DNA of 64,000 nucleotides from Anastatus disparis (Eukaryota > Arthropoda > Insecta > Hymenoptera > Eupelmidae): the NCBI GenBank assembly GCA_017163975.1, contig JAFFSR010000347.1:7864001-7928000 (forward strand). The letters run 5' to 3'. Both the position numbers and the translations under genes were made by a program. The notes beneath the pieces were generated by a model that was not told where the DNA came from, searched no databases, and saw nothing but the letters and a program-made list of their open reading frames with translations. Shown in pieces: positions 25,169 to 64,000 of this stretch; position 1 is the stretch's first letter, and the number at the start of each line of letters is the position of its first letter.

Positions 25169-25184
25169 GGTCCTAAAAAGGACC
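25169..25184 (-). terminator. Histone-type 3' stem-loop after the MGQ gene
   Basis: On the minus strand the sequence is GGTCCTTTTTAGGACC followed by AACA: a perfect 6-bp stem and a 4-nt T loop, the geometry of the replication-dependent histone mRNA 3' stem-loop. It lies 31 nt after the stop codon of the MGQ frame. Confidence 0.6.
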
Positions 25185-25722: not shown

Positions 25723-26547
25723 TTATACAGGAATCATTACATCCCTCAAATCTTTTACAATCATCGGTAAACTAAATGCGGATATTTCAGATAAAACAAA
25801 TTTTAAATATAAGCTTTTATAATGATCCGTATCATCTACCATATTTTCTGTGACGTAACCTTCTAATTCGGTATTGAGAATAGAATAGTATTGTTTAAAT
25901 GATTTGTAGTTGTTAAGAATTACTTTTGCGTTGTCCAGTCCTTCTTGTCCAAGTTTATTTTTTAAAAAGTCTAGTATGTGATCAGTAGTACGGTTGCCTT
26001 TACCGACACGCTCGCTTAAATCGTTGAGAAGAAGATCTACCAAGACACTTTGTTGACGAAGACCTTCGAATGTTGACTGTTGCATGACTATACCTGATGG
26101 ATGATTGAAAGTCTTTCTCTTTTTGCAGAGCGATTGTCCTGGAGTCTCTTCTTCTTCCTCGGAGACGTGTATCTCGTTTGGGTGAGGTCTTTCGTCAATG
26201 CTGATAGATTTGGTGCCGTATGATGTGGTGAAATTTAAATCATGATTGGTTAAAAACAATTTAGTCGGTCTTCCGAAATCTTGATAAAAAGAATAAGAAT
26301 TATGAAAATAAGCTGTAATGGCGTCAAATTGATCTTTGAGAAAATCCCAGCTACGGCGATCAAGAGAGATACTTTTGTGCGAGCCACCTGATGAAACTAG
26401 TTTAATAACTTCGTGATAGTATCCGCCGCTATATTCAAGACCGACACAAATTCTCTTTGAGTTCGACTTATTGAGCGCATAGGTAGTAGATAATAAAAGG
26501 TTTGGCAATTCCGGTAAAACCGGATCGCGTAATTCACAAGGAGCCAT
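25723..26547 (-). CDS. Conserved-looking hypothetical protein, 274 aa
   Basis: Long intact frame starting MAPCELRDPV. Residues about 31-110 form a compact domain with RICVGLEYSGGYYHEVIKL, then SISLDRRSWDFLKDQFDAI. This strand order and the I-S-L-x4-W-x2-L pattern loosely recall PC4/p15-type single-strand DNA-binding folds; that is an inference. An acidic stretch (SEEEEETPG) and a basic KKRK (possible nuclear signal) follow, then an alpha-helical C-terminal half. It lies upstream of the two MGQ frames on the same strand with its own TATAAAAG near 26650. Composition is less AT-biased than the surroundings, which supports real coding. Probably a gene of a Maverick-like remnant. Confidence 0.65.
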   Translation of the reverse strand: MAPCELRDPVLPELPNLLLSTTYALNKSNSKRICVGLEYSGGYYHEVIKLVSSGGSHKSISLDRRSWDFLKDQFDAITAYFHNSYSFYQDFGRPTKLFLTNHDLNFTTSYGTKSISIDERPHPNEIHVSEEEEETPGQSLCKKRKTFNHPSGIVMQQSTFEGLRQQSVLVDLLLNDLSERVGKGNRTTDHILDFLKNKLGQEGLDNAKVILNNYKSFKQYYSILNTELEGYVTENMVDDTDHYKSLYLKFVLSEISAFSLPMIVKDLRDVMIPV

Positions 26548-38430: not shown

Positions 38431-38999
38431 ATTGTCTAACTACACTCAACTCATAGAAGGTTGTCACACTGATCATCTTTTATTTTCGCACTGCTTGTCA
38501 ATGTGTAAACATAGAAATTTTAAATCTGACATGTATGGAAAAAAATTAATTAAAATAAAACTAAGGTTATGATCCTCAGCATCAATGAATATCTGAATTG
38601 GAAGATAATTGTGACTTTAATATATTAATTAGTGCTATTCTAATTATAAAATTTTTAATTTAATCAAAAACATTATTATTAATAATTTTAACATGAGAAA
38701 TTATTGCTGTTAGCAATTCAATCATTGAAAATAATATACGTAGGAGTAGATAAGCTATGGGGTTTCTGGCTCACTGCATTTCTGGCTCACTGCATTTCTG
38801 GCTCACTACATTTCTAGCTCACTACATTTCTAACTCAGTGACTTTAAGAGTCAGGTGAGTTAGAAATGTAGTGAGCCAGAAATGCAGGTGAGCCAGAATG
38901 TTGTGAGCCAGAATGTCGTGAGCCAGAAATGTCGTGAGCCAAGAACCCCATAGCGAGAGGGCGAGCTGCCGGCGGCCGGCTGCGGGCTGTTGACTGTCG
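38431..38999 (+). repeat. Left terminal inverted repeat
   Basis: Begins (as far as can be matched) ATTGTCTAACTACACTCAAC and ends near GGCTGCGGGCTGTTGACTGT. It is the near-perfect reverse complement of the right flank, apart from about 480 bp present only on the right (about 63206-63690). The outer limit cannot be set because the right copy is cut by the window. Confidence 0.9.
38757..38953. repeat. Hairpin minisatellite within the left TIR
   Basis: Repeats of about 19-20 bp (TTTCTGGCTCACTGCA) run inward, turn near 38848, and continue as the complement (TGTAGTGAGCCAGAAA). The whole is a roughly 200-nt foldback bounded by CTATGGGGTTTCTGGCTC and GAGCCAAGAACCCCATAG. The same structure occurs in the right TIR. 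Confidence 0.85.
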
Positions 39000-39099
39000 T
39001 AAATTTTTTTTAATAAGCTTACTGAACATAAGGTTATTATTTCTTATTATTATATAAATTACATTATAACGTATTATATATATATATATATATATATAT

Positions 39100-40399
39100 G
39101 GGACGTTTCACGTCAACTCACCTAGCAAAAAAATAGAATTCGTCGAAAATCTGTGAAAATGTTCTATTTGATACCCAAAATATACAAAAAAAATTTTAGA
39201 GGTCCAGGTCAAAGGGGTCAGGATTTAAACGTGATGGAATTTTTCGAATTTTCCAAATTTTTTGCTAAATAAATATTTTAATGAATTTTTTCCTCAAAAA
39301 CTGTCAATTTTTCGTTAAAACTTAATAGAATACTTTTTCTTGGAAATTAGATGTAGAATTCATATGAATTTTTGCAAATTATAATATACTGATTTTTATG
39401 CTTACTTGATCGATTTAAACATACTATTTAGTATATCTAAAAATCGAGCAGGTTAAATTGGCTTTTTAAAGTCTTATTTTTTTCGTTTTTTTATGAGGAA
39501 AAAATATACGAAGCCTCCAGTTGGGCAGCCTTCTCAAAGTTACTTAATTGTGCAAAAAAGTCTGAATAAATCGTTATTTTGGAACAATGATGAGATTCGT
39601 GATTTTTTTTCTTAAAAAGTATTGATTTTTGGGACAAATGTATAAAAATGTTTTTTATTGGAAATTGTATGTAAAATGTATGTAAATTTTTGTAAACCAT
39701 TATTTGCTAAACATCACAAATTATAAATGAAATTTTGAAATTTAAAAATTTACTTTTTGTTAAATTTTTAGTATATATGGTTCATAATGTCTTAAATTAC
39801 AATTTGTAAAAATATGTTCATATTCTACACATGATTTCCAATAAACAACATTTTCATACATTTGTCCCAAAAATCAATACTTTTTCAGAAAAAAAATCAC
39901 GAATCTCATCATTGATCCAAAATAACGATTTATTCAGACTTTTTTGCACAATTAAGTAACTTTGAGAAGGCTGCCCAACTGGAGGCTTCGTATATTTTTT
40001 CCTTATAAAAAAACGAAAAAAATAAGACTTTAAAAAGCCAATTTAACCTTCTCGATTTTTAGATATACTAAATAGTATGTTTAAATCGATCAAGTAAGCA
40101 TAAAAATCAGTATATTATAATTTGCAAAAATTCAGGTGAATTCTACATCTAATTTCCAAGAAAAAGTATTCTATTAAGTTTTAACGAAAAATTGACAGTT
40201 CTTGAGGAAAAAATTCATTAAAATATTTATTTAGCAAAAAATTTGGAAAATTCGAAAAATTCCATCACGTTTAAATCCTGACCCCTTTGACCTGGACCTC
40301 TAAAATTTTTTTTGTATATTTTGGGTATCAAATAGAACATTTTCACAGATTTTCGACGAATTCTATTTTTTTGTTAGGTGAGTTGACGTGAAACGTCCC
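39100..40399. mobile_element. Palindromic element 4 (1.3 kb) inserted in the Maverick
   Basis: The ends GGGACGTTTCACGTCAACTC and their complement abut (TA)n on both sides. The arms of about 600 bp are almost identical (for example TAAATCCTGACCCCTTTGAC in the right arm and its complement in the left) and meet near 39750. It is non-coding; the frame at 39491-39700 lies in an arm. Confidence 0.85.
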
Positions 40400-40469
40400 A
40401 TATATATATATATTATTATTATTATTTTAAAGAATGAATTTATCATTCCAAACGTTTGAAAAAAATTGT

Positions 40470-40554
40470 GGCCCTGAAAAGGGCCGATTGTTTTTACCGT
40501 TGTGGCTCTGAAAAGGGCCGATTATTTTTTACCGTTGTGACCCTGAAAAGGGCC
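40470..40554 (-). terminator. Three tandem histone-type 3' stem-loops after gene A
   Basis: Minus-strand stem-loops at 40554-40539, 40519-40504 and 40485-40470: GGCCCTTTTCAGGGTC, GGCCCTTTTCAGAGCC and GGCCCTTTTCAGGGCC, each followed by ACA. This matches the metazoan replication-dependent histone stem-loop (6-bp stem, TTTC loop, ACCA-like tail). The first lies 54 nt past the stop of gene A. They repeat with a 34-35 bp period. The last is followed by CAAACGTTTG, which recurs after the stem-loops of genes B and C and may act as a downstream element. Confidence 0.8.
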
Positions 40555-40607
40555 GATTAAATTATCCATTTATTTATTTATTTTTATTTTTTTTTCTCTA
40601 ATTTCAA

Positions 40608-41210
40608 TTAAAATGTAAAATTTAATTTACATTTTACTTTTTTCAATCTTCTTAATTTTTCTAATTCCTCATCATCATCGTCATCTATTTGGTCCCATTT
40701 CCTTTTCGGAGTTGATTTACAAACTTGCACATTTTCGGGTGATGATGACATCTCTTCTTTTCCTTGAGACACGAAGTTGATTGTCTCATACTTTATCGGT
40801 GAAAAGTCAGGTGAAGGTATAAATTCATCTTCATCAGCTTCCTTGTCTTCTACCTCAATTTTCTCTTCTTCCTTCATTTCATTGTCCAATACTTCTGTGT
40901 ATCTCCTTAAAAAAGGATCGTAAATAAGTATTGGAGAGAGAGATGGAGAGATCAATTGTGTTGAGTAAGATGGCTGGACTGGCATCGGTGACGATGTCTT
41001 AGGTCTGCGAAGCGGTGGGACTGGCTGCAATTCTTCATAAACCTTATCTTCCAAAGGCTCATCCATCATATCAGCGAAATTCAACTCTTCATATAAGAAA
41101 GGCTCAAAATCGCCTAACCCTTCTTGAAGAAATTGAAATGTTCGCGGACTAAAGATTCGCAACTCTTCCTCCTCTTCTTTCGTTAGAGTTAAGTCCATTT
41201 CAAAGTCCAT
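40608..41210 (-). CDS. Accessory gene A: acidic protein with basic C terminus, 200 aa
   Basis: Intact frame starting MDFEMDLTL; a second ATG four codons later is also possible. The N-terminal third is acidic and hydrophobic (TKEEEEEL, FLYEELNFADMMDEP), which looks like an activation domain. A Pro/Ser-rich middle follows, then EEEKIEVEDKEADEDE, then a C terminus switching from DDDDDEE to basic RRLKKVKCK and ending NFTF. The C-terminal acidic-to-basic switch and final TF are shared with gene B, so the two look like paralogues. A TATA box lies 60 nt upstream. It is divergent from gene C and followed by three histone stem-loops. The role is unknown; a nuclear regulator is an inference from composition. 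Confidence 0.7.
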   Translation of the reverse strand: MDFEMDLTLTKEEEEELRIFSPRTFQFLQEGLGDFEPFLYEELNFADMMDEPLEDKVYEELQPVPPLRRPKTSSPMPVQPSYSTQLISPSLSPILIYDPFLRRYTEVLDNEMKEEEKIEVEDKEADEDEFIPSPDFSPIKYETINFVSQGKEEMSSSPENVQVCKSTPKRKWDQIDDDDDEELEKLRRLKKVKCKLNFTF

Positions 41211-41259
41211 TTCAAAATCTTTTTTTCCAAAGTCGAAAGAACGAATGAAATAACAGAGA

Positions 41260-41473
41260 CTAAACGCTCTATTTTATACACACAGCGCGAGACAAGTCAT
41301 GAAGAGTGGGGATGTTACGAAATCAACGTAATACAAGTTGCTAAGAGGGGGTGAAACATAGCGACGCGCCATTGGTGCGGAGCAGCTTGGTCGCGCGATA
41401 TGATTGGTGCGCCACAGCTGTGTGAAAGACTATAAGTAGACGGTTTCTTTTTTCACTGCTTCATTAAGACATT
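41260..41473. promoter_or_regulatory. Divergent TATA/CCAAT promoter of genes A and C
   Basis: Between the two start codons (264 bp) lie TATAAAAT on the minus strand (41271-41278, 60 nt before gene A) and TATAAGTAG on the plus strand (41431-41439, 35-43 nt before gene C). Two ATTGG (inverted CCAAT) boxes in the contexts CATTGGTGCGG and GATTGGTGCGC lie near 41371 and 41404. The region is GC-richer than the surroundings. Paired TATA and CCAAT boxes between divergent genes are the layout of histone gene pairs. Confidence 0.65.
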
Positions 41474-41737
41474 ATGGACGCTAGCCAGCAACAGCTTCGC
41501 AAGAAGAAAAAGAATCGGCGCAGCACGAAGGAAATTAAGAGATATAATGCCATCCGGAGAGCTATTGCCGAACTGAAGGTTCAACGTCCAGAAGCAGTAA
41601 CTGGTTTACTATCTCCTTCTGTTGAGGTCTCTCAAGCTGATATCCAGAAACCTAAACTGGATATCAACTTGAGAGATCCAAGAGTGCAGGCAGAAATGGA
41701 TCGAGCTGTCGAAGAGTTGCTTGAGGAAACAAAATAA
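41474..41737 (+). CDS. Accessory gene C: small basic protein, 87 aa
   Basis: Starts MDASQQQLRKKKKNRRS, so it has a strongly basic N terminus that could be a nuclear or nucleic-acid-binding signal. A helical stretch EIKRYNAIRRAIAEL follows, and it ends with an acidic helix DRAVEELLEETK. It resembles no family I can name. It has its own TATA box and a histone-type stem-loop only 12 nt after the stop. It is divergent from gene A. A truncated relative of this position may exist at 48038 (MSYHESQKQPMQ then stop). Confidence 0.65.
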   Translation: MDASQQQLRKKKKNRRSTKEIKRYNAIRRAIAELKVQRPEAVTGLLSPSVEVSQADIQKPKLDINLRDPRVQAEMDRAVEELLEETK

Positions 41738-41749
41738 TTTTAAAAAATC

Positions 41750-41769
41750 GGCCTTTTTCAGGGCCACCA
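41750..41769 (+). terminator. Histone-type 3' stem-loop after gene C
   Basis: GGCCTTTTTCAGGGCC followed by ACCA: six paired positions (one T-G wobble), TTTC loop and the exact ACCA cleavage-side tail of replication-dependent histone mRNAs. Confidence 0.8.
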
Positions 41770-41967
41770 ATTATTTCAAACGTATGAACAAACAATTTCT
41801 TTTTTGTTTTCAACATAGCTATTTTTTTTTTTTTTTACATAATTATAATAGTATAGTTGTACAAAAAATTTTATTATAGGTTAGTACTCTTGTGCATGTA
41901 CAGTTGATCACGATTCAACTTTTTGACCTATTCATATATTGCTTATGAAAAATGTTTTAAAACAGGG

Positions 41968-44900
41968 CCCACACAGCATGAAAGAATTTTGAAATAATTT
42001 CATGAAATATTACAAGTAATAATACGTTGAAAGCATTTAAAAAGAACTTAAAAAGATAACTATATTCTTTTGAAAAGAATTTATGAAATAATACACAGGA
42101 AGATTACAAAGTCTTTACGAAAATATTACCAAAAAGGAAACGAAAGTTAAGACATGAAATATTACACGATTCCTTACTGAAAGGACTTTGAAAAGACTTT
42201 TTGAAAGGAAACAAGAAAAAACTCAGAAATCTTCCAACGATTCAATTTATAAAATAATTTAGAAAGATTTTCAGAATGATCTAAGGTATTCTTTCACCGA
42301 ATCATTCGAAGATTCATTCAAAAAGCTTTCATGAAATAATTCATGTAATATTTTGGTAAAGTCTCAAGAAATCTTACATGAAATAATTTAGAAATCTTTT
42401 TGAAATATTTCATGAAATAACTTATGATGAGAATAAAAGTTATTACATAAATCCTTACTGAAAGGACTTTGAAAAGACTTCTTGAATGGAAACAAGAAAG
42501 AACTCAGAAATCTTTCGAAGGTTTCAGTCGTAAAATAATTCAGGAAGATTTTTGGAATAATCTAAGTTATTTTTTCACCGAATAATTTCAAGATTCTTCC
42601 AAAAAGCTTTCATGAAATAATTCATGTAATATTTTAGTGAAGTCTCAAGAAATCATAAATGAAATAATTTTGAAATCTTTTTGAAATATTTCATGAAATA
42701 ACTTATGATGAGAATAAAAGTTATTACATAAATCCTTACTGAAAGGACTTTGAAAAGACTTCTTGGAAGGAAACAAGAAAGAACTCAGAAATCTTCCAAC
42801 GATCAAAATCAGAAAATAATTTAGAAATATTTTCGGAATGATCTAAGGTATTCTTTCACCGAATCATTCGAAGATTCATTCAAAAAGCTTTCATGAAATA
42901 ATTCATGTAATATTTTGGTAAAGTCTCAAGAAATCTTACATGAAATAATTTAGAAATCTTTTTGAAATATTCCATGAAATAACTTATGATGTGAATAAAA
43001 GTTATTACATAAATCCTTACTGAAAGGACTTTGAAAAGACTTCTTGAAAGGAAACAAGAAAGCACTCAGAAATCTTCCAACGATCAAAATCAGAAAATAA
43101 TTTAGAAAGATTTTCGGAATGATCTAAGGTATTCTTTCACCGAATCATTTCAAGATTCATTCAAAAAGCTTTTATGAAATAATTCATGTAATATTTTGGT
43201 AAAGTCTCAATAAATCTTACATGAAATAATTTAGAAATCTTTTTGAAATATTTCATGAAATAACTTATGATGAGAATAAAAGTTATTACATAAATCCTTA
43301 CTGAAAGGACTTTGAAAAGACTTCTTGAAAGGAAACAAGAAAGAACTCAGAAACCTTCCAACGATTAAAATCAGAAAATAATTTAGAAAGATTTTCGGAA
43401 TGATCTAAGGTATTCTTTCACCGAATCATTTCAAGATTCATTCAAAAAGCTTTTATGAAATAATTCATGTAATATTTTGGTAAAGTCTCAAAAAATCATA
43501 CATGAAATAATTTCGAAATCTTTTTGAAATATTTCATGAAATAACTTATGACGAGAATAAAAGTTATTACATGAATCCTTACTGAATGGACTTTGAAAAG
43601 ACTTCTTGGAAGGAAACAAGAAAGAACTCAGAAATCTTCCAACGATCAAAATCAGAAAATAATTTAGAAATATTTTCGGAATGATCTAAGGTATTCTTTC
43701 ACCGAATCATTCGAAGATTCATTCAAAAAGCTTTCATGAAATAATTCATGTAATATTTTGGTAAAGTCTCAAGAAATCTTACATGAAATAATTTAGAAAT
43801 CTTTTTGAAATATTCCATGAAATAACTTATGATGTGAATAAAAGTTATTACATAAATCCTTACTGAAAGGACTCTGAAAAGACTTCTTGAAAGGAAACAA
43901 GAAAGCACTCAGAAATCTTCCAACGATCAAAATCAGAAAATAATTTAGAAAGATTTTCGGAATGATCTAAGGTATTCTTTCACCGAATCATTTCAAGATT
44001 CATTCAAAAAGCTTTTATGAAATAATTCATGTAATATTTTGGTAAAGTCTCAATAAATCTTACATGAAATAATTTAGAAATCTTTTTGAAATATTTCATG
44101 AAATAACTTATGATGAGAATAAAAGTTATTACATAAATCCTTACTGAAAGGACTTTGAAAAGACTTCTTGAAAGGAAACAAGAAAGAACTCAGAAATCTT
44201 CCAACGATTAAAATCAGAAAATAATTTAGAAAGATTTTCGGAATGATCTAAGGTATTCTTTCACCGAATCATTTCAAGATTCATTCAAAAAGCTTTTATG
44301 AAATAATTCATGTAATATTTTGGTAAAGTCTCAAAAAATCATACATGAAATAATTTTGAAATCTTTTTGAAATATTCCATGAAATAACTTATGATGTGAA
44401 TAAAAGTTATTACATAAATCCTTACTGAAAGGACTTTGAAAAGACTTCTTGAAAGGAAACAAGAAAGAACTCAGAAATCTTCCAACGATCAAAATCAGAA
44501 AATAATTTAGAAATATTTTCGGAATGATCTAAGGTATTCTTTCACCGAATCATTTCAAGATTCATTCAAAAAGCTTTTATGAAATAATTCATGTAATATT
44601 TTGGTAAAGTCTCAAGAAATCATACATGAAATAATTTTGAAATCTTTTTGAAATATTTCATGAAATAACTTATGATGAGAATAAAAGTTATTACATAAAT
44701 CCTTACTGAAAGGACTTTGAAAAGACTTCTTGAAAGGAAACAAGAAAGAACTCAGAAACCTTCCAACGATTAAAATCAGAAAATAATTTAGAAAGATTTT
44801 CGGAATGATCTAAGGTATTCTTTCACCGAATCATTTCAAGATTCTTCCAAAAAGCTTTTATGAAATAATTCATGTAATATTTTGGTAAAGTCTCAAGAAA

Positions 44901-45340
44901 ACATACATGAAATAATTTCGAAATCTTTTTGAAATATTTCATGAAATAACTTATGACGAGAATAAAAGTTATTACATGAATCCTTACTGAATGGACTTTG
45001 AAAGGACTTCTTGAAAGGAAACAAGAAAGAACTCAGAAACCTTCCAACGATTAAAATCAGAAAATAATTTAGAAAGATTTTCGGAATGATCTAAGGTATT
45101 CTTTCACCGAATCATTTCAAGATTCTTCCAAAAAGCTTTTATGAAATAATTCATGTAATATTTTGGTAAAGTCTCAAGAAAACATACATGAAATAATTTC
45201 GAAATCTTTTTGAAATATTTCATGAAATAACTTATGACGAGAATAAAAGTTATTACATGAATCCTTACTGAATGGACTTTGAAAGGACTTTATGAAAAAA
45301 AACGTGAAATATAACAGAATCATTTAGAAATATTTTCGGG
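41968..45340. repeat. Satellite C, 281-bp monomer, 843-bp higher-order repeat
   Basis: About 12 monomers marked by GGTATTCTTTCACCGAATCA every 280-282 bp (42287, 42850, 43131, 43412, and so on). Segments at 42880 and 43723 are almost identical, giving a higher-order unit of three monomers (843 bp). The array starts CCCACACAGCATGAAAG, the same edge word as satellites A and B. It lies inside the Maverick. Confidence 0.9.
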
Positions 45341-45640
45341 ATTAGTTTATAATTTATCCGCTTGATGGCGGTATCTCTTACTCTCGCAAGCGATAAGAGT
45401 GCTTCCCGTTTCATATATAAGGAAAATAAGAATCTTAAATGGAAACTATAAATTGTTATGCGTGCGATGTCTGTGTTATGATAACTTTGATTTTAACCGC
45501 TGTAAAACTATTCGTAATCCTATGAATAATTATATCATCATATATCCGTTATATATATGTGTGTGTGTGTGTGTGTATTGATTCTAAATTGATTCTTAAA
45601 TAATACAGGAAAGAATAAAATTTCTAGAACCTTACACGTC
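45341..45640. other. Unique spacer between satellites C and D
   Basis: Contains a (GT)n tract near 45559-45580. Otherwise non-repetitive with no gene recognised. Confidence 0.45.
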
Positions 45641-46250
45641 TCTCAACTAAAGATAGATGAAAAGATTAATGCATTATTACTAAAAGAATTCATGGATCCT
45701 TACAGAATTCTTTCATTGAAAGGATTCTGTAATAATTCTATGTCCGAGGTATATTTCTTTCAGAAATAATACAATGAAATATTTTTAAAATATTTTATAT
45801 CATTCTTACAGAATACTTTCAATGAAAGATGTATGAAAAGATTTAAGAATTATTACCAAAAGAATTCATGGATCCTTTCAGAATTCTTTTATTAAAAGGA
45901 TTCTGTAATAATTCTATGTCCGAGGTATATTCCTTTTAGAAATAATACAATAAAATATTTTAAAAATATTTCATATTATTCTTACAGAATCCTTTCAATG
46001 GAAGATATATGAAAAGATTTACGAATTATTACCAAAAGAATTCATGGATCCTTACAGAATTCTTCCATTGAAAGGATTTTGAAATGACTTGTGAATTCTT
46101 TATGAAATATTTTTATGTATTATTTTTAAAAGAATAATACCTCGGACATAGAATTATTTCAGAATCCTTTCAGTGAAATATTTCTGAAAGATTGTAGTCC
46201 TTTTATGAATCCTTTCAGAATCCTTTCATAGTCCTTTTATGCTGTATGGG
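45641..46250. repeat. Satellite D, ~176-bp units, closing inverted edge
   Basis: Three units with AGAATTCATGGATCCTTACA (near 45687, 45863 and 46039). The last part is inverted (CTCGGACATAGAATTATT against AATTCTATGTCCGAGG). It ends ATGCTGTATGGG, the complement of CCCATACAGCAT, so 41968-46250 is bracketed by inverted copies of the edge word. Confidence 0.8.
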
Positions 46251-46289
46251 GATCGCCATGCATCAGTTGAGCTGATAGACATACTAAAA

Positions 46290-47300
46290 AAGCTGAATAT
46301 TTTTTATATAATTTAACCATAGCAAAAAAAATATGCCTAAGTGTAAATTACTTGTTTTTTCCACAAAAAGCTGATTTTGTGAGAACTTTTTTTTTCTAAA
46401 ATTTTGAAGTATTCTAGCTATGGTTATAACAAATATTTTCCATTAATCTACATGTAGAAACTAACTTTGTGTTAAAATTTCAAAGCTGTAAGGCTCTTAG
46501 ATCAAAAGATATGGAATAAACTTTAAAATTTTTTCGACAAAGGTCATTTTTTCGAATAATGAGTTTTGAAGCTTATAAATAACTTTAATAAGCTTAAATC
46601 ATGTTTTTCAAAGTATATTTTCATTTAATTTAATTTAAATATCAAATTAATCATTAGAACAAATGACTAAATATGAATTAACTTTTATTTTTCCTCAAAA
46701 AGCTGATTTTGTGAGAACTTTTTTTTTGTAAAATTTTAAAGTATTTTAACTATGGTTACAACAAATGTTTTTTATTAATCTACATGTAGAAACTAACTTT
46801 GAGTTAAAATTTCAAAGCTGTAAGGCTCTTAGATCAAAAGATATGGAATAAACTTTAAAATTTTGTCGACAAAGGTCATTTTTTTGAATAATGAGTTTTG
46901 AAGCTTATAAATAACTTTAATAAGCTTAAATCATGTTTTTCAAAGTATATTTTCATTTAATTTAATTTAAATATCAAATTAATCATTAGAACAAATGACT
47001 AAATATGAATTAACTTTTATTTTTTCTAAAAACTCTTTTCAGTGGCAACTTTTTTTTTCTAAAATTTTAAAGTATTCTAGCTGTGGTTACAACAAATATT
47101 TTCCATTAACCTACTAGTTGAAACTAACTTTGAATAAGAATTTCAAAGCTATAAGGCTTTTAGATCAAAAGATATGGAATAATCTTTAAAATATCAACGA
47201 CTCTAGAATTTTTTTTTTCAGATAATGAGTTTGTAAGCTTACGAATATCTTTAAGAAGCTTAAACCATGTTTCTAAAGTATTTTTTATTTAATATTTTAT
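46290..47300. repeat. ~330-bp tandem repeat, 3 copies
   Basis: Copies marked by AAAGCTGATTTTGTGAGAAC at about 46371 and 46697, with a diverged third near 47030. Each contains GGCTCTTAGATCAAAAGATA or a close variant. Non-coding. Confidence 0.85.
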
Positions 47301-47391
47301 ATAACAATAATTATATATATATGTATATATACTCTCAAAGATTACTTTAAAATTTCAGAAAACGAATAAATCGTTCCAACGTTTAAAAAAT

Positions 47392-47411
47392 TGGTGGCCC
47401 TGAAAAGGGCC
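47392..47411 (-). terminator. Histone-type 3' stem-loop after gene B
   Basis: Minus strand GGCCCTTTTCAGGGCC followed by ACCA, a canonical match. It lies about 20 nt past the distal stop (47432) of gene B and 92 nt past the premature stop. Confidence 0.8.
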
Positions 47412-47431: not shown

Positions 47432-47836
47432 TTAAAACGTTAGCCGTCTTCTGCTCCTTGACGGCTCAACATCTTCATCATCACTATCATCAAGATTGAT
47501 GATCTAAACTAATATTTCCACATCAGCAACCGGCTGTTGAACTACAGGTGATTGAGTAATATCAATCACCTCTAATTCAACTGCCGGTTGTTGAATAGGC
47601 GAAGCTGGACTTTCCGGGTCTGGCAGTGGCTCCGGATCGGGTGACTCTGGAGAGTCTGGCAAAGACTCTTCTTCCAAAGGCTCGGGCGACCCGGGCGACC
47701 ACTCCAGCAGCGGCAGATCAATCTCCGATGATGATGATGATGATGATGATGGACTTGGCGGAATAAACGCTAAGTCCGGCACGTCCAAATGCACAAAAAG
47801 TGGCAGCGCTTCGTTCTTCATGGTGACAATACGCAT
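47432..47836 (-). pseudogene. Accessory gene B: Pro/Ser/acid-rich protein with an internal stop
   Basis: Frame from MRIVTMKNEALPL (or the internal MKNEALPL) through a serine run and many SPE/DPE repeats to EILV, then TAG at 47504-47506. Reading on in the same frame gives NLDDSDDEDVEP, a basic SRSRRR and LTF before TAA, just ahead of the stem-loop. This tail resembles the acidic-to-basic C terminus of gene A, so the TAG is probably a recent nonsense mutation that trims about 23 residues. A TATA box (47875-47884, minus) and CCAAT boxes lie upstream. Function unknown. Confidence 0.65.
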
Positions 47837-49918: not shown

Positions 49919-49934
49919 GGTCCTTATCAGGGTC
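49919..49934 (+). terminator. Possible degenerate histone-type stem-loop
   Basis: GGTCCTTATCAGGGTC forms six pairs only with two wobbles and is followed by AGAA rather than ACCA. The downstream sequence (ATGGAACAAAC) resembles the region after the gene C stem-loop (ATGAACAAAC). Possibly a displaced or decayed 3' end. Confidence 0.3.
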
Positions 49935-50532: not shown

Positions 50533-51779
50533 ACTGTGTTAAGCGCAAACTATGCAGTAGTTAAGAATGATAGTGAACTTTCTGATATTAAGTACTTTAA
50601 TACAAAGGCAGTTCCAATCTACTCTTCAACTGACTTGAACGAGTGGTTTATGAAAAACATTGAACAAGTTATCAGCACTGAAATGGAAGAATTTAAGGAA
50701 CAGGATTCAGGCTGGTCTTTGCGATCATTCATTAATTTAACAGTGAATATAAACAAGTATAATCCTATGACTGGTAGTTCTTATGTCAACTTGCCTGAAT
50801 TCATTAAGAAAAAGAAAGCATGTGTAAACGTTCAGAATCAAGACGAACAGTGCTTCAAATGGGCCATCATATCAGCAATGCATCCAGTACAGAAAAATAT
50901 GGAACGTGTCTCATCTTATTTAAGATATGAAAATGAATATGATTTTAGTGGAATACAATTCCCAGTCCAACCAAAACAAGTTAAGAAATTCGAAAAGCAA
51001 AATGATATTTCAGTGAACGTGTATATTTTGAAAAAGAAACGTGAAACCTATGAAGTTCTACCACTCCATCTCACAGCGCAGAAAAAAAATAAACACGTTA
51101 ACTTGCTTCTTGTGGAAAATTTTTATATTGATGAAGATGACGATGAACAAGAAGATGAACTTGATGATTTTGATAGGTCACACACCTTTCATTATGTCTG
51201 GATAAAAAATCTTTCTCGATTGGTGAAAAGTCAGTGTACTTCTCATAGAAGTAGAATACATATTTGTGACCGCTGTTTGCATTTCTTTTACACAGCTGAA
51301 AAACTGGCTATACATGCAATCGATTGCGAGAAAGTGAACGAATGTAAAATTGTGCTTCCTAGTGAAAAGGACAATGTGTTACGGTTTAAAAACTTTGCTT
51401 ACAATAATCGAGTACCTTTTGTGGTATATGCTGACTTTGAGTGCTTATTACATCCTGTCGATGACGATCGGAAACATCAACGTCACGAAGCTTTCAGCAT
51501 AGGATTGTTTGTCAAATGCAGCTATGACGAGACTCGTTCAGTATACAAAAGCTATCGACAGCAAAGAGAGGAAGATGAAGCTCCAGCCAAGTGGTTCGTA
51601 AAAAATCTTCGTTCTTTAGCTTTGAAATTGAACGAGATGTATCAGAACCCTCAACCTATGAAGGAATTGACAGATCAAGAAAAAGCAAATTTTGCTAGAG
51701 CTCGTTCATGCTATATTTGCTCAAAAATTTTTAGACCAGATGATCATAAGATTCGAGATCATTGTCATTTCACTGGAGA

Positions 51780-51855
51780 GTAAGTATTTGACTTTTTCAC
51801 AATATTATATATAAAATATATTTGATAAATTATAAAAAAAAAATTTTATTTTCAG
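51780..51855 (+). other. Polymerase intron 1 (76 bp)
   Basis: Donor GA|GTAAGT and acceptor TTATTTTCAG|AT. Removing it joins HFTGE to the conserved continuation YRGPAHNSCN within the Cys/His cluster. Without splicing, the frame stops at the donor. Confidence 0.9.
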
Positions 51856-52528
51856 ATACAGAGGTCCTGCACATAACTCGTGTAATCTAAATTACATAGA
51901 CTCACGAACTTTACCAGTAATTTTCCACAACTTGAGTGGTTATGATGCGCATTTGTTTATCATGGAGTTAGCGATCAGTTTTCCAGGACGAGTGCTTCTT
52001 TTACCTCAAACGAAAGAAAAGTACATCTCTTTTACCAAATTCGTAGAGGGTACAGATATGAATTTACGATTCATTGATTCATTTAAGTTTATGCCATCGT
52101 CTCTAGAAAAACTCGCATCATACTTGGAGAGGCTCGACACTGTTGATCGAATATTTCATCAGGATGATGGATTCTCTTCAGAGCAAATCACTTTACTGAA
52201 AAGAAAAGGTGTTTTTCCTTATGACTATGTGTCATCCTTAGATAAGCTTGATGAGACTGACCTACCGTCGAGAGCAGATTTCTTCAGCAGCTTGTACGAA
52301 GACGATATCACTCTTGAGGACTACCAACATGCAAAGAATGTTTGGCAAGCTTTTCAGATCCAAACTCTTGGTCAATACTCGGATTTATACCTTAAAACAG
52401 ATGTATTGCTGTTAGCTGAAGTATTTGAAAACTTTCGAAGCAACTGTCTCGAGGCTTATGATTTGGATCCAGCTCACTACTACACTACTCCAGGCCTGTC
52501 ATGGGATGCCATGCTTAAGTTCACTAAT

Positions 52529-52593
52529 GTAATAAATTTATTATAACTAACAATCAAGATTATATATATATTAATTAATCAATAATTTAATAG
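52529..52593 (+). other. Polymerase intron 2 (65 bp)
   Basis: Donor AAT|GTAATA and acceptor TTTAATAG|GTT, phase 0. It joins MLKFTN to VELELLTDID. The intron contains in-frame stops and is AT-rich. Confidence 0.85.
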
Positions 52594-54328
52594 GTTGAAC
52601 TGGAACTTTTGACTGACATCGACATGCTCATGTTCATCGAGCGTGGAAAACGTGGAGGTATCAGCCAATGCTCAAATCGCTATGCGAAAGCCAATAATCC
52701 ATACATGAAAGAAGGTTACAACGCTGATGAAGACGAGAAATATCTCATGTATTTTGATTTCAATAATCTATATGGTTGGGCTATGACCAAATATCTACCT
52801 TACGGTGGTTTCAAGTGGGTGCTCGACGTTGATCAACCAAACTTTTTCGATGTTCCTGAAGATAACTCGATCGGTTATATCCTCGAAGTTGATTTGGAGT
52901 ATTCAGTTACGCTTCATGATGCTCACAAAGATCTTCCTTTCTGTGCTGAACACATGACACCACCAGAATCCAAACAGAAGAAACTAATGACCACGCTTTA
53001 TGACAAAAAGCGTTATGTTATACATTACATAGCACTCCAACAAGCGCTTAAACATGGACTACGACTCAAAAAAATTCATCGAGCATTGCAATTCGATCAG
53101 AAAGCATGGTTAAAACCATATATCGATTCGAACAGTGAAAAGCGCAAGAACGCTAAAAATGAGTTCGAGAAGATGTTATTCAAACTGTTCAACAATGCTG
53201 TTTATGGCAAAACGATGGAAAACGAGCGGAAACATGTAGATATTAAATTGATCTGTAAATGGGACGGTCGCTATGGTGCTGAGGCACTTATCTCTAAACC
53301 AAATTTTCATAGTTGCACTATCTTCGATGAAAATCTCGTAGCAATACAACTTATGAAGACGAAAATTTGTATTCAAAAACCTATATACGTAGGACTTTAC
53401 GTTTTGGACTTGTCTAAAACGCAAGTGTATAGGTTTCATTATGATTATATGCGAAATCGTATTGGAAATAAGTGCAAAATATTATACACTGATACTGACA
53501 GCCTGGTGTATGAGATAACCAATGTCAACATATATGACATCATGAAGGAAGATATTCACGAGTTTGATACATCTGACTATCCCGAGAATAATCAATTTAA
53601 CATGCCACGAGTCAATAAGAAAATCATTGGCTTGATGAAAGATGAATGTAATGGTGGAATCATGTTGGAGTTTATTGGATTGAGAAGCAAAATGTACTGC
53701 GTAAGAGTTGAAAATAAAAAGCCTATCAAAAAAGCTAAAGGTGTCAAGAGCTCTGTAGTTAAAGCAACCATCACCTTTGAAGATTACATCGAATGCTTGC
53801 GCGAGAATAAAATTTTGGAACGAGAGCAGCGAAACATCAGATCTGACCATCATGTTCTGTACACCGAGAAATCAACGAAGATCGCTCTAAGTGCTTACGA
53901 TGACAAACGGTGTATGATTATTGGCTTAACGGACACACTGCCCTGGGGTCACTATCTGGAGGGGCTTGACGCCATTAAAGAGATGGAGGAAGAGTGGGGA
54001 GTTACCGCTGCAATCGAGCCGCCGCAAAACCCGCAAGAGAAGGGAGATGGAGTAGAAGTGGGGAGAGATCTATATGAGCAGAGGTCTCGCACGCCAGAAC
54101 TCATTCAGTCAACTGAAGAGCCATCGAGAACATCTCCTATCATCAAAGAAGTTGAAAGAAGCCTGCATCAGAGACCTGAGCTTCCAGAACCAGCAACTAA
54201 AAGGAGTAGAAACTTTTGAAAAAACTAAATCGAGATTAGTGAAATATTTTTTTTTTTTTCTTTAATTTTCTTTAGCACATAAGATAAATTCTAAATATTA
54301 ATAATTTTTTTAAATCTTTTTGTTACAG

Positions 54329-54918: not shown

Positions 54919-55829
54919 TTAAATATCTGTTTTATTAATCCAACTATTATGAGAACTGTCAAAACCTAGCCATTTGACAAATACTTGATTTCCATGTCTT
55001 TTGACAATTTTTTCTACGAGATAAATGTCTGGATACTTGGCCTTCTGCAGTTCCTCTGCATAGAAACCACCGGAGATGAGTTGATCTTGGTAATCCTTCA
55101 AATAATACGTCGTTGGATCAGTAGCTGCTACCCGTACAACTGTAAATATTTCCGTCGACCAGTTTGGAGTATATCCTTTCTCAAAGACGTGCTTTGCATT
55201 GCTTACACGGACTTTGTCACCGACTTTAAACTTTGTCTTCTTCTTCATGGTTCTGCGTTTATGAGCAAATTTTAACAAAACTTGGGCTTCATTAACAGAT
55301 GTTACATCTTTAGGCTTCATTCCAATGGTACGATGTTTACGTTCATTATAATCTGCTATTAATTCAGGTAAGATATCCAACCATTTGTAATTACCACGTA
55401 AGCTGAACTTTTTCCACATAAGATTTTTCAAAGTGCGATTGAAACGTTCGCAGATCGATGCCTTCAAACTGCTATATATTGAGTATAGATGAATCTTGTA
55501 CTTGCGCATCAGTCTTTGAAAATCTGAATTATAGAATTCCTTGCCTCTGTCGGTGTGAAGATTCTTAGGCACTCTGCCTTTTGATAATATAGATTTCATT
55601 GCTGCAGAGACTTCTACGCCAGTTTTATTTTTAACTGGGACTGCCCACGCGTATTTGGAAAAAATATCTATAAAGTAAGCATGTATTTGTAGCCTTTGTT
55701 TTCTCGAGAATAAGATTGCATCTCTACCAGATCAGCTTGCCATGTCTCATTCAAACCTCGCACATCAAACTTTCGGCGAGGATAATTACGACGTGCTGGC
55801 TTGTGAAGCTCTTCTACAAGTTGTTCCAT
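54919..55829 (-). pseudogene. Retroviral-type integrase with chromodomain, frameshifted
   Basis: Minus strand. The first segment starts MEQLVEELHKPARR (55829) and contains the first catalytic Asp in ETWQADLVEM (codon 33). A 1-bp loss near 55672 shifts the frame, giving TAG, and homology resumes as IDIFSKYAWAV in the next frame. The second segment (to 54919) holds HTDRGKEFYN (second Asp) and KASICERFNRTL (Glu, 34 residues after Asp), completing D,D-35-E. Its end, YLVEKIVKRHGNQVFVKWLG, is a chromodomain, as in Maverick integrases that target chromatin. Its 5' end overlaps the coiled-coil gene by 16 nt. It would insert the element into the genome but is broken here. Confidence 0.9.
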
Positions 55830-57220: not shown

Positions 57221-57925
57221 TTATGTGCGCGCTATATTTATAGCAAAACAATCGAAGCCTTTCCTATATCTACCAGAATTGATCGAACTATCTTTGTCGA
57301 TCATTAAAAATCCGTATTTATCATCAGTCCAACACTTGGAGCATAATTCTTTGAATTGGGCGTAAGTCATGTCAGAATTGACGTGATCGTCGTATAAGTG
57401 TCTCAAATTGACGTCATCTTGTCGAAAAATCACCAACAAATTGACATTGTCTCTGACTAGATGTTTTGGAATTCGAGCATAAGATTGACAGAGATAGAAA
57501 CAATCAACTTCTTTGTGCCTGCCCATACAGAAGTAAGCTCTGATGTTATCTTGTTTTTCGCAGGCTACATCATCGAAAATCATAACTGAATTCGGAAGCA
57601 CATTATCAGGGGCTACAACAGATTCATGTTCACTAAAGGGAAAGTATTGTACATCTTCTAAAGGCTCTAGAAGGTCTTTCAAAAACTTGTACTTTGGTTG
57701 ATTCAAAGACTTGGAGTACACATAAACGTTTTCAAACCTGAGACCGTTGGGATGTGTTATTAGTGCTAACAGACTATTGGTTTTACCACAATTTGATGGA
57801 CCGCAAAATACAGCTCGAATACTGTTTGGAAGTAAGTCTCCATGCCTCTTTAATTTCTTCTCATGCTCCACGATAGTGTCGAAATTTTCTATCGGCAGCT
57901 TAACGGATTGTTCTTTGAAATTCAT
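57221..57925 (-). CDS. FtsK/HerA-type genome-packaging ATPase (A32-like), 234 aa
   Basis: Intact frame. Walker A is GPSNCGKT at residues 42-49. Walker B is VMIFDDV at 114-120. A third motif, FYLCQSYARIPKHL, places the conserved Gln used as sensor. These are the marks of the packaging ATPases shared by Mavericks, adintoviruses and poxvirus A32. It would pump element DNA into a capsid. The length is normal for the family. It is divergent from the PLA2 gene with only 95 bp between the start codons. A TATA-like TATTTATA at about 57961-57969 serves the minus strand. One of the best preserved genes of the element. Confidence 0.9.
   Translation of the reverse strand: MNFKEQSVKLPIENFDTIVEHEKKLKRHGDLLPNSIRAVFCGPSNCGKTNSLLALITHPNGLRFENVYVYSKSLNQPKYKFLKDLLEPLEDVQYFPFSEHESVVAPDNVLPNSVMIFDDVACEKQDNIRAYFCMGRHKEVDCFYLCQSYARIPKHLVRDNVNLLVIFRQDDVNLRHLYDDHVNSDMTYAQFKELCSKCWTDDKYGFLMIDKDSSINSGRYRKGFDCFAINIART
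57230..57243 (-). promoter_or_regulatory. TATA box inside the ATPase 3' end for the downstream minus gene
   Basis: Minus strand GCTATAAATATAGC, about 52-64 nt upstream of the ATG at 57179. It is a palindromic TATA placed within the last codons of the ATPase gene. Confidence 0.55.
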
Positions 57926-60140: not shown

Positions 60141-61370
60141 ATGGAGGAAATTCTAAACATAAGGACAGGAGTAAGATTGGATGAGTCAATAGCTCACTGT
60201 GAGGTGCACGCGTACCAGCCTTACACATCGTCAAATTTCAATAATAGCGATGAAATTCGCATATCAATTCAACATCAAGATTTAAATCTTTTGCCTTCGC
60301 GGAGTTCTCTGCACATAGTGGGAAAATTAACTCAACAAGATGGCACTGCTTTAGTAAGAACTAACTTAGTTAATAACGGCATCTGTCATCTATTCGAGGA
60401 AGTTCGCTATGAAATTAATGCTATAGAGATTGATCGCTGTAAGAATGTAGGATTGACTACCGTTATGAAGGGTTGGGTATCACTCAATCCCAGTCAGAGT
60501 TTGATTATAGAAAATGCTGGTTGGATTGATATAACGGAAACTCGGAAGATCATTAATAACAATGGCTATTTTGATATTTTCATACCTCTCAGTATGATTT
60601 TAGGCTTTGCTGAAGATTATCGCAAAATCATAGTCAATGTTAAACATGAACTTATCCTCACGAAATCCAGGAACGATATTAACGCAGTAATACAAACACC
60701 GGATGCTACTAATGCTTACGAAGATTTCAAAATTAATCTTTTAAGGATCGAGTGGCTTATGCCTCACATACAGTTATCCAATGAATGTAAAATTCGCATG
60801 CTTCGACAAATCGAGAAAAATAAACCTATCTCAATGAGTTTTCGTTCCTGGGAATTATACGAATATCCATTATTACCGGCATCAACGAGACATGTATGGA
60901 CAGTCATAACATCTAATCATCTGGAGAAGCCTCGTTTTATCATTCTTGGTTTCCAGACAAATCGAAAAGGACAAAAAACTGCTAACGCTAGTCAGTTTGA
61001 TCATTGCAATTTGAGCAATGTAAAACTATTTCTCAATTCTACATACTATCCTTATGGAAATATGAATCTTGATATTGCCAATAATCAGTATGCAATATTA
61101 TACGATATGTACGCTAATTTCCAAAATGCATACTATGGGAAGGAGTCCGAGCCAATGCTGAAAAAATCAGATTATATCAATCACATGCCACTGATAGTCA
61201 TCGATTGTTCAAAACAAAATGATTCTCTAAAGAGTGCTCCAGTTGATGTTCGTCTTGAATTCGAGACCAAACAGAACTTTCCAGTTGGAACTTTAGCTTA
61301 CTGTCTAATCTTACATGATAGCATCATAGAATACAACGCCATAAGCGGTGATGTTAGAAAATTAGTCTAA
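60141..61370 (+). CDS. Major capsid protein, double jelly-roll, 409 aa
   Basis: Intact frame from MEEILNIRTGVRLDESIAHC to ISGDVRKLV. Visible family features: HLFEEVRYEINAIEIDRCKN, ENAGWIDITETRK, FIPLSMILGFAEDY, MSFRSWELYEYPLLPAST, NVKLFLNSTYYPYGNMNLDI and APVDVRLEFETKQNFP. The length and alternation of two beta-rich halves match the double jelly-roll capsid of Mavericks/adintoviruses, which forms the pseudo-hexameric capsomers of an icosahedral virion. No stop or shift is visible, in contrast to polymerase and integrase. Confidence 0.9.
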   Translation: MEEILNIRTGVRLDESIAHCEVHAYQPYTSSNFNNSDEIRISIQHQDLNLLPSRSSLHIVGKLTQQDGTALVRTNLVNNGICHLFEEVRYEINAIEIDRCKNVGLTTVMKGWVSLNPSQSLIIENAGWIDITETRKIINNNGYFDIFIPLSMILGFAEDYRKIIVNVKHELILTKSRNDINAVIQTPDATNAYEDFKINLLRIEWLMPHIQLSNECKIRMLRQIEKNKPISMSFRSWELYEYPLLPASTRHVWTVITSNHLEKPRFIILGFQTNRKGQKTANASQFDHCNLSNVKLFLNSTYYPYGNMNLDIANNQYAILYDMYANFQNAYYGKESEPMLKKSDYINHMPLIVIDCSKQNDSLKSAPVDVRLEFETKQNFPVGTLAYCLILHDSIIEYNAISGDVRKLV

Positions 61371-62836: not shown

Positions 62837-62955
62837 ATGCTTGAATATTTAGTAGTATAAGAGATTGCTTTTAAGCATGCGATTGGGGGATTCCCCTAAA
62901 AACCCTATGTCGTTTATAGCTCGCTTGAGCTATAGTCTCCCCTGCGCCAATACTG

Positions 62956-64000
62956 CAGTCAACAGCCCGCAGCCAGCCGCCGGCAGCTCGCCCTCTCGCT
63001 ATGGGGTTCTTGGCTCACGACATTTCTGGCTCACGACATTCTGGCTTACCTGCATTTCTGGCTCACTACATTTCTAACTCACCTGACTCTCAAAGTCACT
63101 GAGTTAGAAATGTAGTGAGCTAGAAATGTAGTGAGCCAGAAATGCAGTGAGCCAGAAATGCAGTGAGCCAGAAATGCAGCGAGCCAGAAACCCCATAGCT
63201 TATCTACTCGTAGGGTTAAATGTTTCGAAAGTCCGTTATCTTTTTTCAGAATTTTGAAATTTCAAATGGCTTTTCCATAATATTTATTTAAATTGTATAG
63301 AAAGTCAATTTTTAATTCATGTTTGTTATCGACATGCATTTATTCGTATAAATTATAATCGCTTTAAAATTGTAACAAGTATACAGAATACCGTAAAATG
63401 ATGAAATATTTCGGGTTTTTTAATGAAATTTTCAACAAGTATTAAAAAAAAATACATTGAAATACTATATTAGAAATTTCAAAGTACCTCATCATTATAT
63501 TATTGTCTGAATACTTATTGCAGTTCTAAATATTAAATATAATTCATTTGAATGAATACATTTCGATTACAAACATGAATTAAAAACGAAATTTCTATTC
63601 AATTTATATAAATAATAAGAACGTGCTATTGGAAATTTTTAAGCTCAAAAAAATAACAGATTTTCGAAACATCGAACTCCACCCACATAATTTTTAATGA
63701 TTTCAACATTGAATTGCTAACAGCAATAATTTCTCACGTTAAAATTATTAATAATAATGTTTTTGACTAAATTAAAAATTTTATAATTAGAATAGCACTA
63801 ATTAATATATTAAAGTCACAATTATCTTCCAATTCAGATATTCATTGATACCGAGGATCATAACCTTAGTTTTATTTTAATTAATTTTTTTTCCATACAT
63901 GTCAGATTTAAAATTTCTATGTTTACACATTGACAAGCAGTGCGAAAATAAAAGATGATCAGTGTGACAACCTTCTATGAGTTGAGTGTAGTTAGACAAT
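62956..64000 (-). repeat. Right terminal inverted repeat (continues past the window)
   Basis: Reverse complement of the left TIR: GTCAACAGCCCGCAGCCAGC at the inner edge and GTTGAGTGTAGTTAGACAAT at the window edge. It includes the hairpin minisatellite at about 63000-63198 and about 480 bp (63206-63690) not present in the left copy. The terminus and target-site duplication lie outside the window. Confidence 0.9.

Follow-up and report, generated by a model that had tools for sequence, protein, structure and literature searches.

The 64,000-nucleotide (nt) stretch of DNA analysed here, hereafter the window, comes from the hymenopteran Anastatus disparis (Eupelmidae; assembly GCA_017163975.1, contig JAFFSR010000347.1, positions 7,864,001 to 7,928,000 of the forward strand) and carries a virus-derived element of the Maverick/Polinton type, more precisely of the eupolintovirus or adintovirus type. 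Three accessory genes of this element, designated A, C and B, are each followed on the sense strand by histone-type stem-loops, which consist of a 6-base-pair stem and a 4-nt loop. Gene A (40608-41210, minus strand) is a single open reading frame (ORF) for an acidic, SP/TP-rich protein of 200 amino acids, and three stem-loops lie behind it on the same strand: the first, at 40539-40554, begins 53 nt after the stop codon and has one broken pair (GG..TC), the second, at 40504-40519, follows 88 nt after the stop, and the last, at 40470-40485, is canonical and lies 122 nt after the stop. Gene C (41474-41737, plus strand) is divergent from A and encodes 87 amino acids; its single stem-loop, at 41750-41765 on the plus strand, lies 12 nt after the stop and contains one G-T pair in the stem. 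The frame of gene B (47432-47836, minus strand) ends in RRRLTF and contains an in-frame TAG at 47504-47506, while its relative at locus L021 elsewhere in the genome is uninterrupted and encodes 132 amino acids. A canonical stem-loop is found 20 nt past the end of the B frame, at 47396-47411 (minus).

The last stem-loop of each gene is in turn followed by a CAAACGT- or AAACGT-type word. The putative downstream element of A, around CAAACGTTTGGAAT, occupies 40440-40458 (minus), with ACGT 14 nt past the last stem-loop, an offset similar to that in the histone genes of the host; those of C and B lie at 41777-41793 (plus), around CAAACGTATGAACAA, and at 47366-47384 (minus), around AAACGTTGGAACGATT. 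All five stem-loops thus stand on the sense strand close behind the stop, at 12-122 nt. A previous sequence-only reading of this DNA had noted correct-strand stem-loops behind A, C and B, and both the coordinates and the scores given below bear this out. Its minimum distance of 12 nt is likewise correct, but it had counted one stem-loop per gene and a maximum distance of 92 nt. None of the three proteins has a Pfam match over cut-off, and none qualifies as a histone.

The stem-loops were scored with the Rfam histone family RF00032 (Histone3), for which the cut-off is 34 bits. The last stem-loop of A reaches 36.6 bits, and no other match in the window, whatever the Rfam family, exceeds its threshold. 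The stem-loops of B (32.6 bits, E 2.9e-6) and C (28.3 bits, E 1.2e-4) fall below the cut-off, such that A conforms to the RF00032 stem and loop fully, and B and C only nearly. A strict scan of the window returned four sites, of which three follow A, B and C, whereas 20 sequences generated from a first-order Markov model contained 0.2 on average. The sequence-only reading is borne out here, and more strongly than it had claimed. Furthermore, 16 ORFs of the element were checked, a set to which pieces one and two of the polymerase frame and a number of small ORFs do not belong. A sense-strand stem-loop within 300 nt was present for A, B and C and for none of the remaining 13.

Two further hairpins were noted in the window. 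An extra stem-loop (GGTCCTTTTTAGGACC, then TATACGTAAG) at 25184 on the minus strand is not part of the Maverick and follows, at a distance of about 540 nt, a 274-amino-acid ORF (25723-26547, minus) without a Pfam match; it may be a chance occurrence, since the expected number of such sites in a window is 0.2. A degenerate stem-loop with two mismatches, followed by ATGGAACAAACTG, is located at 49919 (plus), behind no listed ORF and upstream of the polymerase-like ORFs.

The genome of A. disparis (939 Mb in 399 contigs) was searched with the same model. At least 71 matches reached an E-value of 1e-3 or better, the window's own site not being among them; this is a lower bound, as 75 of 191,936 candidates were scored. 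Of 14 control genomes, one responded to the model, below the cut-off. The loci of 32 of the 71 matches were read (L001-L030, L135 and L136). Genes for H1, H2A, H2B, H3 or H4 were present at nine, relatives of A or C at seven (L135 by its C-terminus only), and a relative of the 156-amino-acid gene that comes next after the capsid gene at three. A second accessory family, MDFGL...YDPVVQQYVEVP...RRRLF, was found at another 12 (L006, L009, L011, L012, L017, L020, L024-L027, L030 and L136, with L030 holding a distant member). The L030 gene adjoins an integrase fragment that is 68% identical to the one in the window (E 4e-39); since the gene also resembles the second family with an E-value of 3e-6, this family is assigned to Mavericks. 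Altogether, genes assigned to Mavericks, whether accessory or capsid-side, are present at 22 of the 32 loci, and L023 is unassigned. Most members of the second family have tandem stem-loops, and the family has a YDPxxxxYxE motif in common with A.

The histone genes at these loci reveal the host's own version of the signal. H1, H2A, H2B, H3 and H4 of A. disparis all bear a stem-loop with stem and loop identical to those of the Maverick. In 18 host histone stem-loops, an AATC 5' flank occurs in 13, GGCCCTTTTCAGGGCC in 14, and ACGT at an offset of 13-15 nt in 10; the AATC flank is present in 80 of the 84 last stem-loops of Maverick gene A copies. Two host H1 genes (L002 and L004) even possess two tandem stem-loops, with an AACGT word behind the second only. 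That host histone genes share both the signal and its local dialect is the decisive support for assigning the Maverick stem-loops to the histone pathway. The resemblance to a replication-dependent histone 3' end extends to the hairpin, the loop, the AATC flank, the ACA-type tail and the AACGT word at 12-15 nt. The differences are that the clients are viral accessory genes rather than histones, that arrays reach six stem-loops as opposed to the two of the H1 genes, and that the Maverick signals are known here from DNA sequence alone.

Stem-loops are also short inverted repeats in an element that replicates DNA, and they could in principle act at the DNA level, as palindromic sites for replication, packaging or integration. 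This is scarcely credible, however, given that the strand-specific loop, the flanks and the downstream word all agree with the RNA signals of host histone genes, and that the position of the stem-loops is tied to gene ends.

The sequence-only reading had named absence of the stem-loops from homologous genes in related elements as an outcome that would refute it. Within the source genome no such refutation was obtained, and retention is the rule. Protein A matches at least 145 genome stretches at 31-100% identity (150 of 185 candidates scored), and the 89 rows in which the match reaches the C-terminal part were scored for stem-loops; 27 merged matches ending before residue 170, and nine of 30 loci with a match ending before residue 178, were left out. 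A sense-strand stem-loop lies within 300 nt in 85 of the 89 rows, in 77 of them without a mismatch to the pattern, as against one of 89 on the antisense strand and 36 of 4450 simulated Markov tails. Because L044 and L076 are pieces of a single copy, with L044 its front portion, this corresponds to 85 of 88 distinct copies, or conservatively to 84 of 88 if the weak case of L100 (two mismatches, 275 nt) is discounted, as it is in all analyses of 84 copies reported here. Similarly, gene C, whose copies were located by tblastn in the retrieved loci and range down to 58% identity, keeps its stem-loop in 28 of 29 distinct copies, 12-21 nt past the end of the match and in 23 cases without a mismatch. 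Gene B is found in four places, with a stem-loop in the window, L021 and L057 but not in L046.

The retained stem-loops are also constrained in sequence. In 10 close, intact copies of A, for which the ratio of nonsynonymous to synonymous polymorphism (pN/pS) is 0.34, the stem-loop columns differ at 0.0125 per site and the coding sequence at 0.019. The remainder of the 3' region, at 0.062, is about five-fold more variable than the stem-loop columns. Paired variants of the stem are found, namely AGTCC/GGACT, AGCTC/GGGCT, AGTTC/GAACT, GGTCC/GGACC and GGCTC/GAGCC.

Within the tandem arrays, which comprise up to six stem-loops behind A copies, the downstream word has a characteristic place. ACGT occurs 8-34 nt past the last stem-loop in 71 of the 84 A copies (AACGT in 69), but past only two of 151 internal stem-loops, against a background of 9.7% in random 26-nt stretches from the same A tails. 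In 70 of the 71 copies that have the word, its offset is 12-14 nt. The sequence-only reading had reported CAAACGT-like words after the final stem of all three genes, and this stands, with the addition that within the A array the word belongs to the last stem-loop only. An arrangement of hairpins first and a single downstream element last would be the layout needed for one cut past the final hairpin. It might alternatively be supposed that the stem-loops are bound by the stem-loop-binding protein SLBP for the sake of stability or translation, or as a sponge, and do not form mRNA 3' ends, a proposal that draws on the length of the arrays and on the near-complete lack of downstream words behind internal stem-loops. 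Nevertheless, the near-fixed distance of a histone-type word from the last stem-loop, together with the occurrence of downstream words behind the single stem-loop of gene C, makes binding by SLBP without 3'-end formation distinctly unlikely.

Together, these observations support the sequence-only reading and suggest, with a probability of roughly 85%, that the mRNA 3' ends of A, B and C arise through the replication-dependent histone pathway of the host, with its SLBP and U7 components. RNA polymerase II would transcribe the accessory gene, SLBP would bind the stem-loop or stem-loops of the transcript, and the U7 small nuclear ribonucleoprotein (snRNP) would pair with the AACGT-type element 12-14 nt past the last of them. 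The histone cleavage complex would then cut between the last stem-loop and the downstream element, leaving an mRNA that lacks poly(A) and has its 3' end past the final hairpin. S phase, in which host SLBP is available, would presumably be the time of highest expression, and this timing would suit a DNA-replicating element in need of replication-competent cells. The account of the pathway draws on PMC9756948 and on general knowledge; the sequence itself shows the signals with their strand, spacing, host dialect, retention and constraint. For a U7-type role of the downstream word, with AACGTTGGAAC-type words as candidate pairing sites, it is the position of the word that argues.

A number of results weigh against assignment to the histone pathway. 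The U7-type downstream element envisaged in the sequence-only reading agrees in position, but no U7 RNA of the host was found: in a search with RF00066, in which 65 of 354,154 candidates were scored, the best hit (L031; 25.7 bits, E 0.75) is not U7-like by eye, and a pattern search gave four matches (three forward, one reverse) where the control pattern gave five and six, respectively. Three of the four were inspected by eye and are not U7-like. In addition, the host H3 genes that were read have ACAAGGAAC or similar words in place of AACGT. When the interval is widened to 0-34 nt, nine of 151 internal stem-loops have ACGT, in seven cases at offset 7. Lastly, at L007 (1506, plus) and L008 (1541, minus), which belong to another Maverick lineage, a stem-loop lies about 220 nt behind a capsid-adjacent gene, on its strand, and a rule that accessory genes alone carry the signal may thus fail in some Maverick lineages.

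To these must be added that many A copies are near-identical, with 53 distinct downstream sequences in 84, and therefore are not independent, and that the covariation evidence is weak: with a strict anchor, 448 of 5000 shuffles yield at least as many distinct, fully paired arms as were observed. With looser anchors, 0 of 2000 and 68 of 5000 shuffles match the observed value; the outcome is anchor-dependent and is not relied upon. Both points speak for chance hairpins, or for a functionless repeat passively copied along with the element, since retention among near-identical copies is partly inheritance. Yet this explanation is very improbable in view of the excess of sites in the window over the Markov expectation, the persistence of the stem-loops at protein identities as low as 31% (A) and 58% (C), the lower divergence of their columns, the host-specific flank and spacing, and the near absence of stem-loops from the wrong strand.

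A further objection concerns polyadenylation. AATAAA lies between the stop and the first stem-loop in 49 of 84 A copies, where 37.9 are expected from composition, and 19-33 nt behind the stop of A in the window, so that A transcripts may be polyadenylated upstream of the stem-loops. The genes could have dual 3' ends, being normally polyadenylated at AATAAA and ending at a stem-loop in S phase only, as is the case for some human histone genes that possess both signals. Human H2AC18, according to PMC9756948, either ends at its stem-loop or is polyadenylated. However, the excess of AATAAA over composition is small, gene C has neither AATAAA nor ATTAAA within 300 nt, B has such words only at 138-142 nt past its end, and the AATAAA of A is upstream of the stem-loops, which differs from the human arrangement. 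Dual ends are therefore rather unlikely, and processing through the histone pathway remains the favoured interpretation.

Two protein searches, one with a single and one with an aligned query, revealed at their sensitivity no relatives of A outside the source genome. Within it, 75 of the 89 A rows have a basic C-terminal tail of the RKLNYTI or KCKLNFTF type; 50 of 89 tails are RxL-like, and 21 of 89, among them that of A in the window, read KCKLN[FY]TF, which does not fit RxL. Several members of the second accessory family end in RRRLF, much as B ends in RRRLTF. The tails of A, B and the second family may resemble cyclin-docking RxL motifs, and IDxTxSP may resemble SUMO-interacting motifs. On this basis an S-phase module can be imagined, in which histone-type gene ends are combined with proteins that could contact cyclin/CDK and SUMO through their conserved basic C-termini (RKLNYTI, KCKLNFTF, RRRLTF), many SP/TP sites and IDxTxSP motifs, and in which tandem arrays may hold SLBP or shield the mRNA from decay at the end of S phase. 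This extension is tentative and rather unlikely.

The identity of the element is secured by its major capsid protein, a double jelly-roll protein encoded at 60141-61370 (plus; PF21738, E 2e-116), and by its terminal inverted repeats, two features diagnostic of the Maverick/Polinton type. The left repeat spans approximately 38431-39001, where inverted-repeat arms I3, I5, I7 and I9 pair with 62951-64000, the right repeat, which may extend beyond the window. A Pox_A32-like packaging ATPase is encoded at 57221-57925 (minus; PF04665, E 8e-6, above its cut-off), and an integrase fragment with a chromodomain at 54919-55599 (minus), the rve and Chromo matches being weak and under the Pfam cut-offs. 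Neither of the polymerase-like ORFs submitted to Pfam, two in number, matched the DNA polymerase PolB, and a protein-primed PolB is a putative reading of the ORFs. The polymerase-like frame (50650-54219, plus) is broken into three ORFs, and this copy of the element consequently looks decayed. A 620-nt inverted repeat (96% identity, 88-nt gap; 39086-40413) adjoins gene A, and an AT-rich tandem array with units of roughly 280-300 nt, as judged by eye, occupies 42040-45330 between C and B. Rfam matches to microRNA families, some within the terminal repeats and some across gene B, were below cut-off and were set aside.

Among the best 120 of 2242 capsid matches, the named relatives are hymenopteran (for example Nasonia, Trichogramma, Neodiprion, Venturia and Leptopilina). 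One of them is the hexon (P0034; 67% identical) of Megastigmus wasp adintovirus, which NCBI places in the Eupolintoviridae (taxid 2609859). The capsid, packaging ATPase, weak integrase match and terminal inverted repeats thus ally the element with the adintoviruses. A distant capsid relative (32%) lies on a contig of a bacterial metagenome-assembled genome (L134) with no stem-loop within two mismatches, and no relatives were found in IMG/VR and a phage collection.

Histone-type 3' ends are commonly regarded as a hallmark of replication-dependent histone genes. Among the matches listed from the open-licence literature there is no description of such ends for Mavericks or adintoviruses, nor for the genes of other viruses, and the same claim in the sequence-only reading holds to this extent. 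A further comparison is with the oncoids, a class of accessory genes in small DNA viruses (PMC11071296) whose small products are identified through short linear motifs. A, B and C may resemble them in their RxL-like C-termini and IDxTxSP motifs; the text of that paper does not contain the term 'stem-loop'. The nearest mention of RF00032 in a virus is a match in SARS-CoV-2 (14.7 bits), which, according to PMC7786107, lies inside a coding region and not at the 3' end of a gene.

The processing signal is known; its user, a set of viral accessory genes, is to our knowledge new. Several unrelated genes stand under one signal, written in the local dialect of the host and under constraint. This offers a simple test for clients of SLBP and U7 beyond histones, as well as a sequence mark by which the accessory genes of hymenopteran polintoviruses may be located. 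Should the interpretation be correct, DNA elements would be seen to have a novel means of tying their expression to S phase and of dispensing with poly(A), and, if the S-phase module were also real, a family of animal DNA viruses would time itself by the histone machinery of its host.

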